Source: Planctomycetia bacterium (GTDB lineage: Bacteria; Planctomycetota; Planctomycetia; Pirellulales; UBA1268). From it: a stretch of DNA of 64,000 nucleotides. Under the pieces are notes generated by a model. It saw only the letters and a program-made list of their open reading frames with translations. It did not search any database and had not been told where the DNA came from. The stretch is taken from positions 1 to 64,000 of the forward strand of contig JAIOPD010000091.1 of NCBI GenBank assembly GCA_021414115.1. Reading direction: 5' to 3'. Shown in pieces: positions 23,244-61,670 of this stretch (positions are counted from its first letter, which is position 1; each line of letters opens with the position of its first letter). Position numbers and translations under genes: made by a program.

Positions 23244-24779
23244 TCATCCGGCGCGGAGCACGTCCTCGACGCGGCGAATCGCCTCTTCGACGTCCCAGGC
23301 GGCATCGGCCAGCACGATCTGTGAACGCTTCGCCACCCATTCGCCCACCGCCTTCTGTGCGGCGATGACCGTCGAGTGGCTCCTGCGACCGAAGAAGCTG
23401 CCGATCTCGACGAGCGCGGCGTGGGTGTGCTTCCGGGCGAGGAACATCGCCAGCATTCGTGGATGACTCGTCGTCCGGGCCCGCCGCGCCGATTGCAGGC
23501 TGCCGCTGTCGATGCCAAAAGCCTTGCACACGGCCCGCTCGATGTCGGCGAGCCGAACGCTTCGCGCACTCGATCGCACGAGATCGGAAAGGGCTTCCAC
23601 CGCCATGTCCTGCGCGATCGGCAGGCCGAGCATCTGGCTCGTCGCCTCCAGGCGGTTGACCGCCCCGAAGAGTTCGCGGGCGTGCCGCGTCATGTGGGTG
23701 GCGACGTATTGCACGACGTCGTCGGGTGCCGCCAGGCCCCGCTTGGCGCAGACTGCCGCCACGATCCCCCGGCGCACGTCAAAGTCGGGGGGCAGGATCC
23801 GTGCGGTCATCCCGCCGCGGAGCCGCGTCAGCAGATCGGGGCCGAGGTCGGGCAACGCATCGAGTTCGCGATCGCAGCCGAGGATCACCTGTCGCCCCTG
23901 CCGCTGCAGAAAGTCGAGCGTGTGCTGCAGTTCGAGGATCGTGGCCTTTTTGCCGACGAAGAACTGCAGATCGTCGATCACGAGCAGGTCGGCGGTGCGG
24001 CACGTGCGGCGAAAGCCGGGCAGGCCGCCGCCACCGTGGAGGGCATGCAGAAAGGCGGTGGTGAACTGTTCGGCCGAGAGGCACACCGCATTGACGCCCG
24101 GATGAACTTCACGGGCCCGTTCGCACGCCCCTTCGAGGAGGTGCGTCTTGCCCACGCCACTGGGGCCGTGGATCACGAGCGGCGAGATTTCGCCGGGACG
24201 GGCGACCGCCATTTCGACGGCCCCGCAGGCCATGCGGTTGCTCGGCCCGACGACGAAGTCCGCCAGCCGCAGACCGGGCCGACGGCCCGGGGAAGCTATT
24301 CCTTTGGCCTGCTGGGCCACGACAGTGAGCCCGCGGGACAGCGGCTGCGGGCCGCGGGCACCGCTTGGCGTGGTCGCAGCCGCAGAACGACCGCCACGGC
24401 GGCCGACAGAGGGCCGGCGTCGGGGAGGAGCAGCGGGCTCTGCGGGCGGACTTGGGGGCACCGCCACCGCGTCCGCTGCGGCCGGCTCCCAGCCCACCTC
24501 CGCGGAAGGTCCGCAGGCATCTCGGGCCGCCGCGGCCATTTCCGCGCTGAACGTACGGCACAGCCAATCGTACGTGAAGCCGCTGCCCACAGTGACGATC
24601 ACCCGCGGGCCGGGACCGCTGCCGCCATGTGCCTCGACCGCGAGCCGAACCGCGTCTCCGAACCAGACCGCAAACCGGTCATCTCCGATGCGTGAACGAA
24701 AGGCCCGCAGGACGCGCTCCGCAATCGCCTCGCCGTCGGACGGTTCGGCGTTTTCGACGGCGTCGCGTGCGTTCCCCAT
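23244..24779 (-). CDS. dnaA: Chromosomal replication initiator protein DnaA
   Basis: The 511-residue protein matches DnaA, the AAA+ ATPase that opens the replication origin. Domain I is present near the N-terminus (FRSRIGDDRFAVWF), then a long proline- and alanine-rich domain II linker (about 90-165). Domain III follows with Walker A GPSGVGKTH near 203 and Walker B LLVIDDLQFF near 260. Domain IV ends the protein with the DNA-binding pattern HTHAALVEIGSFFGRRSHST, recognisably the DnaA signature though not the usual A-L-S-x-P-E-I-G wording. An AAGGA site precedes the ATG. It stands alone: dnaN, recF and gyrB are not next to it. The upstream region holds a strong promoter overlapped by a palindrome. 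Confidence 0.93.
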   Translation of the reverse strand: MGNARDAVENAEPSDGEAIAERVLRAFRSRIGDDRFAVWFGDAVRLAVEAHGGSGPGPRVIVTVGSGFTYDWLCRTFSAEMAAAARDACGPSAEVGWEPAAADAVAVPPSPPAEPAAPPRRRPSVGRRGGRSAAATTPSGARGPQPLSRGLTVVAQQAKGIASPGRRPGLRLADFVVGPSNRMACGAVEMAVARPGEISPLVIHGPSGVGKTHLLEGACERAREVHPGVNAVCLSAEQFTTAFLHALHGGGGLPGFRRTCRTADLLVIDDLQFFVGKKATILELQHTLDFLQRQGRQVILGCDRELDALPDLGPDLLTRLRGGMTARILPPDFDVRRGIVAAVCAKRGLAAPDDVVQYVATHMTRHARELFGAVNRLEATSQMLGLPIAQDMAVEALSDLVRSSARSVRLADIERAVCKAFGIDSGSLQSARRARTTSHPRMLAMFLARKHTHAALVEIGSFFGRRSHSTVIAAQKAVGEWVAKRSQIVLADAAWDVEEAIRRVEDVLRAG

Positions 24780-24871
24780 GGGTCCTTCCCGTGCCAGATT
24801 CCTCGCGGATTCCGACGATTTTCATCCGTGTTTTCGCATCCCGATTCGCACTGAATCAAAGAAGCGGCGCG

Positions 24872-24899
24872 AGTATAGGAGTGCATGCAGTGCTGTCAA
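24872..24899 (-). promoter_or_regulatory. dnaA promoter (consensus sigma-70 type)
   Basis: Read on the minus strand, TTGACA (24899-24894) is followed after a 16-base spacer by TATACT (24877-24872). The -35 is a perfect match to consensus and the -10 differs at one position. Transcription would start near 24865 and give a leader of about 85 bases to the dnaA ATG at 24779. The -35 hexamer overlaps the left arm of the palindrome at 24884-24918. Confidence 0.75.
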
Positions 24900-24918
24900 A
24901 CCATGACAGCACTGCATG
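24884..24918. promoter_or_regulatory. 35-bp perfect palindrome over the dnaA promoter
   Basis: The arm CATGCAGTGCTGTCA (24884-24898) is repeated in exact reverse complement at 24904-24918, with a 5-base centre. The chance of a 15-base perfect arm pair at this spacing is negligible. It covers the -35 and most of the spacer of the dnaA promoter, the position expected for a repressor site. It could equally be bound by a dimeric activator or form a cruciform. Confidence 0.85.
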
Positions 24919-25017
24919 GGAAAGAACGATCAAATGCCGCGCGTCGAAACGCGAAACCACGGCGATGCTGCGCTGCGCCGGCGCGAACGAATCATTTCAC
25001 CGCGGTATTCGCGTCGT

Positions 25018-25032
25018 GCACAAGTTGTGCAT
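25018..25032. promoter_or_regulatory. 15-bp palindrome TGCACAA-G-TTGTGCA
   Basis: A perfect 7-base arm pair around one central G, about 100 bases from the larger palindrome in the same intergenic region. Each arm resembles part of a DnaA box (TTATNCACA) but is not a match at the usual stringency. It may be a second regulator site. Confidence 0.5.
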
Positions 25033-61459: not shown

Positions 61460-61607
61460 GGAACAACTCCGCGTGGCAGTCCGGGCAGGCGGCGGACTCT
61501 AGCAGGCTTGTTTCAGCCCGGCGAGGCCGTTTTCACCGCTCCTTTCCCAGCTCGATTGCACCCGTTTTCAGAGCCTTGCCGGCGTGGGGGCGGCAAAAGT
61601 CTCCTCA

Positions 61608-61630
61608 CATGGGGCCGCGGCGGCCCCATG
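61608..61630. repeat. 23-bp perfect palindrome (hairpin)
   Basis: CATGGGGCCGC, one G, then GCGGCCCCATG: two 11-base arms in perfect reverse complement. No T run follows on either strand, so it is not an obvious terminator. Confidence 0.7.
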
Positions 61631-61670
61631 TTCGTCGAGCGTTCGCCGACCCCCGCGCCTCGTCCGTCGA

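Follow-up and report, generated by a model that had tools for sequence, protein, structure and literature searches.

A conserved, nearly single-copy promoter element and a phased DnaA box upstream of a stand-alone dnaA paralog in Pirellulales, with a perfect palindrome in one lineage

The window, here meaning the whole 64 kb stretch of DNA that was analyzed, carries on its minus strand a gene for a full-length DnaA protein, denoted DnaA-A. The features of this gene and of the region upstream of it are as follows:

23247–24779, minus strand: full-length DnaA paralog (DnaA-A, 511 aa), identified by Pfam domains, structure matches, and motif inspection
24780–24865, minus strand: 5' untranslated leader, its start inferred from the position of the -10 hexamer
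24872–24877, minus strand: -10 hexamer TATACT (order consensus TAnAATC), from promoter scan and conservation
24882–24889, minus strand: putative spacer operator TGCATGCA (TGCnnGCA in the family, TGCTAGCA in the order), in the middle of the 16-bp spacer (N4-8-N4)
24884–24918, no strand: interrupted palindrome with 15-nt arms and a 5-nt loop, perfect only in the window genome (G000)
24891–24911, no strand: core inverted repeat TGCTGTCA-N5-TGACAGCA, common to a subset of relatives
24894–24899, minus strand: -35 hexamer TTGACA, from promoter scan and conservation
24904–24911: outer half-site, the lineage-specific left arm, within the core inverted repeat
25016–25023, minus strand: DnaA-box-like TTGTGCAC, 124 bp upstream of the -35, at a position phased as in related promoters
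25025–25032, plus strand: second, inverted box-like TTGTGCAT facing the first (TGCACAA-G-TTGTGCA), read directly from the sequence

The product of the gene is a real DnaA, as originally predicted, but the gene is not that of the dnaA-dnaN-gyrB locus. It scored as DnaA in Pfam (PF00308, 109.6 bits; PF08299, 72.2 bits) and matched solved DnaA structures over long stretches, and it has a domain I-like N terminus, an AAA+ module with intact Walker A (GPSGVGKT) and Walker B motifs, and the helix-turn-helix of domain IV; its recognition motif is GRRSHSTV rather than the GGRDHTTV seen in most DnaA proteins. The classical location is occupied by a second paralog, DnaA-B, which is short (about 290–420 aa), lacks domain I, and precedes dnaN in the window genome, G041, and G042, with gyrB also present in the latter two. 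Two DnaA paralogs were found in relatives within the order and in a majority of the genomes sampled from the class Planctomycetia as a whole, and the premise that the level of dnaA sets replication timing is therefore not simply transferable to this group. DnaA-B carried GGRDHTTV in nearly all genomes, with GGRQHTTV in the window genome and its sister (G017). Walker A was missing from every DnaA-B examined in the window's genus and present in nearly all DnaA-B proteins from other families of the order. Since DnaA-B is short and, in this genus, without Walker A, the stand-alone DnaA-A would be the likelier working initiator here. Sampled GC skew in G052 and G041 was weak or irregular and did not place the origin. 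The DnaA adjoining dnaN in the window genome (L118:3230-4096 on G000:C101, outside the window) was short and without domain I or Walker A, and retained a clear DnaA helix-turn-helix. In the class-wide sample the short DnaA measured about 330–450 aa and lay at base 1 in several closed assemblies, so that origins assigned automatically may rest on the wrong gene.

A near-consensus promoter reading toward dnaA was confirmed. The minus-strand arrangement TTGACA-16-TATACT (24899–24872) reads into the DnaA-A gene with 11/12 consensus matches; one promoter of this grade was found, as compared to 0.1 expected in shuffled sequence. The perfect 35-bp palindrome reported at this site is also present, with the qualification that it is interrupted (2 × 15 + 5 nt): the arms at 24884–24898 and 24904–24918 are 100% complementary over 15 nt and flank a 5-nt loop (CATGCAGTGCTGTCA-AACCA-TGACAGCACTGCATG). 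The -35 hexamer, said to lie within the palindrome, has five of its six bases in an arm and its first T in the loop. The palindrome is real and above chance. It was the longest inverted repeat of the window (loops up to 20 considered), 60 first-order Markov simulations of the window reached a maximum arm of 14 and never 15, and inverted repeats with arms of at least 12 were expected about 0.3 times per window. The runner-up, at 61607–61631, has 12-nt arms and a 1-nt loop.

Conservation of the palindrome in close relatives was partial. Arms of 15 bp occurred only in the window genome, with 12 bp in the sister G017 and 8–9 bp or none in others; the core TGCTGTCA-N5-TGACAGCA was present in about eight relatives and missing from many more. 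The left arm read TGCTGTCATGG in G000, G017, G005, G014, G016, G021, G009, and G028 (one base shifted in G028) and was TGCTGGCA-like in G002, G013, G024, and G032; it was not found in the remaining family promoters, that is, in most of the family, and the palindrome was missing in most of the order. What close relatives share is thus a partial arm or core, in a subset of them, and not the perfect form. The conserved unit is not the 35-bp palindrome, and in our best reading the perfect palindrome is a local, lineage-specific elaboration with an extra half-site. It is possible, if rather doubtful, that the palindrome arose chiefly as a by-product when template switching perfected an imperfect inverted repeat, and that it is either functionless beyond its conserved right half or acts via cruciform extrusion. 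The gradation of arm lengths toward a single perfect example is consistent with such an origin, as is the folding energy of one strand (-18.5 kcal/mol, z = -7.1). However, all members of the eight-genome clade that surrounds the window in the DnaA-A tree retained the left arm, whole or partial, and the left half-site was likewise kept in genomes of four further genera, which is beyond what drift would keep. A by-product origin concerns the palindrome alone and is compatible with the explanation of the promoter that we favor below.

Conservation across the Pirellulales was observed in the promoter, as an asymmetric core, TTTGACA-gcNN-TGCTAGCA-N4-TAnAAT(C), in which the window has TGCATGCA. Sequence resembling GTTTGACAGCA-(C/G)TGC-nn-GCAC-nnCTATACTC was found in 28/30 loci of the window's family, the other two stopping at a contig edge; all family loci that extend far enough upstream (28/30) carried TTTGACAGCA...GCAC...CTATACTC-like sequence, and TTTGACAGCA was invariant in 31 of 31 distinct family promoters. 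The columns of TGCTAGCA held at 82–100% and the flanking N4 positions varied (approximately 0–0.5 bit) in a set that was partly fetched with the motif itself. Because of this partial retrieval by motif, 36 loci of the order from outside the family, fetched by protein or HMM, were used for an unbiased count. Exact TGCTAGCA lay upstream of dnaA in 20 of these (0.45 expected), and the exact arrangement TTGAC-N5-TGCTAGCA-N3-5-TAnnAT in 17. At the dnaA-A promoter of Blastopirellula marina DSM 3645 (locus L181) the site reads TTGACACCAGTGCTAGCA; no recognisable element was seen in the order members G038, G041, L183, L186, L192, and L221. A contig titled Candidatus Kuenenia stuttgartiensis (L177, CAMBSN010000009.1) also carried a window-family DnaA-A and promoter; its length and coordinates match G016:C9, and its title appears to be taxonomically wrong.

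The arrangement of TGACAGC(A) half-sites varied while TGACAGC itself stayed: an inverted copy lies upstream (the left arm) in the window clade, a tandem duplication in G027 and G036, and an inverted copy downstream, TGACAGCA-N-TGCTGTCA, in G026, G035, and G052. A dyad in mid-spacer with variable N4 on both sides looks like a protein site. Other orders of the class practically lacked the promoter element. Because 20 upstream regions from those orders contained only other TTGAC promoters, without TGCTAGCA and with just one DnaA box, in reverse orientation, the module looks restricted to Pirellulales. Other orders (e.g. L339, L342, L347) had a conserved dnaA-A promoter of their own, TTGACTCTnnnnnAATTnAAGCTAGTAT-like and likewise with a 16-bp spacer.

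Near-uniqueness within each genome was observed directly. The promoter element occurred about once per genome, at the dnaA-A gene, in the window genome and the relatives searched, and the exact palindrome and its arm were single copy in the genome. Neither the arm nor the core palindrome nor the promoter element, searched in the window genome and its relatives, turned up at a recurring second site, whether upstream of other replication or cell-cycle genes or elsewhere. The proposal that the site marks a regulon was rejected on these grounds, as was a LexA-like or other autoregulated multi-target repressor; an operator of the SOS/LexA type serves several promoters, including that of its own regulator. 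Single copy also sets the palindrome apart from REP or mobile-element repeat families, which have many genomic copies. A resemblance of TAGCACTC to CIRCE, the HrcA element, did not hold up: the TC that matches is not conserved beyond the family, and no GAGTGCTAA partner accompanies it. An RNA element was rejected for want of an Rfam match above threshold (the best, P4, was at chance level, E 0.23) and is further disfavored because the site lies upstream of the inferred transcription start. The site lacks the T-run of a terminator and its flanking genes diverge, and this candidate was rejected as well. No helix-turn-helix gene was found beside dnaA within the window.

Simple autoregulation had been set aside on the grounds that the palindrome does not resemble DnaA boxes. 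The resemblance is indeed lacking at the spacer and -35 site itself (TGCTAGCA, TGACAGC), but the exclusion is not safe, because a phased DnaA box lies upstream of the same promoters. The E. coli box consensus is TTWTNCACA (PMC5835720), and such a box in the dnaA promoter region, the mark of a DnaA-autoregulated promoter, was found in 63/76 related promoters of the order as TTTTCCAC (mostly TTnTGCAC in the window's genus), in the direction of transcription and 70–139 bp upstream. In the window, TTGTGCAC differs from the consensus at the third position (one deviation). The distances from box to -35 cluster near 70, 80, 91, 104, 115, 125, and 136 bp, with a best period of 11.1–11.2 bp and R of 0.70 for all distances, 0.63 for the 28 distinct distances, and 0.81 for distances under 130. 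With the period scanned, 0/5000 random sets were as phased, and the result was the same with distinct distances only, a restriction that handles phylogenetic non-independence only in part. Permuted motifs gave a box-like match in 0.9 loci on average, and only seven permutations had enough matches for their phasing to be compared, all of them falling below the observed value. A second, weak box was also overrepresented, 11 bp farther upstream than the first (z 5.1).

We lean, modestly, toward an explanation with two components: a putative dedicated, single-target operator over the -35 and spacer, and DnaA autoregulation from the phased box. The strong sigma-70-type promoter with its 16-bp spacer would serve the full-length DnaA paralog of Pirellulales. 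The dyad TGACAGC-N3-GCnnGCA over the spacer and -35, with its order-wide core TGCTAGCA, would be bound by a dedicated dimeric regulator that probably blocks or remodels RNA polymerase binding, at the dnaA-A promoter only. The box 70–139 bp upstream, set on its 11-bp lattice, would provide DnaA feedback, with DnaA on the box making contact with either RNA polymerase or the protein on the operator along a shared face of the helix. The window's lineage also carries a further inverted half-site, TGCTGTCA, 5 bp upstream of the one at the -35; the perfect form would have arisen when this half-site was extended to 15 bp, possibly as template switching corrected an imperfect palindrome, and should strengthen or extend protein binding. 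Protein binding, the dimeric state, repression, looping, and occupancy of the phased box by DnaA are all steps that we infer from the sequence. The original prediction of an operator for a new regulator fits insofar as a conserved, dyad-like site that is not a DnaA box occupies the spacer and -35 across the order; it does not fit insofar as it made the palindrome the conserved unit. A new regulator of DnaA-A would likely act at this site. A bolder version, which we hold only tentatively and think doubtful, is that a Pirellulales regulator on TGCTAGCA (TGCnnGCA) cooperates by phase-dependent looping with DnaA bound 70–139 bp upstream, the initiator role having moved from the short, decaying DnaA of the dnaN locus to the stand-alone DnaA.

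A serious rival is constraint intrinsic to the promoter. The spacer and TTTGACAGC might be fixed to tune RNA polymerase binding or promoter strength at an essential gene, leaving DnaA autoregulation from the phased box as the only regulation. A strong, near-consensus promoter with a phased DnaA box agrees with this, and a promoter-intrinsic optimum might also occur once per genome. We nevertheless judge it unlikely: sigma-70 spacers are normally without sequence conservation, whereas here an 8-bp spacer dyad is kept while its flanks drift, no other promoter in the genome uses the element, and half-sites have been duplicated or inverted in several lineages. Still less probable is a circuit of DnaA proteins alone, in which DnaA-A or the short DnaA-B binds the upstream boxes and also occupies the promoter region as an oligomer, with DnaA-B repressing or titrating the gene for DnaA-A. 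The phased boxes, tandem at an 11-bp pitch, would suit it, as would the retention of GGRDHTTV by nearly all DnaA-B proteins while the ATPase was lost in the window's genus; against it, TGCTAGCA and TGACAGC are unlike DnaA boxes. Co-variation between the DnaA-B recognition residue and the box was not supported, since the D-to-Q substitution in G000 and G017 does not follow the switch of the box from TTTTCCAC to TTnTGCAC.

The favored arrangement, an operator combined with DnaA feedback, has partial parallels. In MerR promoters the spacer is long (19–20 bp) and requires remodelling. The Pirellulales site resembles a MerR-type operator as a dyad between -35 and -10, but its spacer of 16 bp is near optimal, which by this comparison would fit repression better than MerR-type activation. 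The autoregulated dnaA promoter of E. coli (PMC5835720) is alike in having a DnaA box in the promoter region, a strong promoter, and a gene whose level matters for initiation; its box lies between two promoters, whereas Pirellulales have one box or a tandem pair 70–139 bp upstream on the 11-bp lattice and an additional non-DnaA dyad in the spacer. Mycobacterial dnaA promoters are reported to be under non-DnaA regulators, PrpR (PMC3982210) and MtrA (PMC2945938). The likeness lies in a non-DnaA protein at a dnaA promoter, putative in Pirellulales; PrpR and MtrA have further targets and different sites, unlike the Pirellulales site with its one promoter per genome. Among the papers searched, none dealt with paired DnaA proteins in Planctomycetes, with their dnaA promoters, or with the motif.

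Of more interest than the palindrome are the promoter module shared across the order and the presence of two DnaA paralogs. Little is known of how planctomycetes initiate replication or set its timing. An operator that is conserved order-wide and occurs in single copy, at the promoter of the initiator, provides a bait for its regulator, and the phased DnaA box allows a simple test of looping feedback. With two paralogs, of which the one at the classical locus is shortened and, in the window's genus, without Walker A, the annotation of 'dnaA' and the placement of origins in Planctomycetia may mislead.
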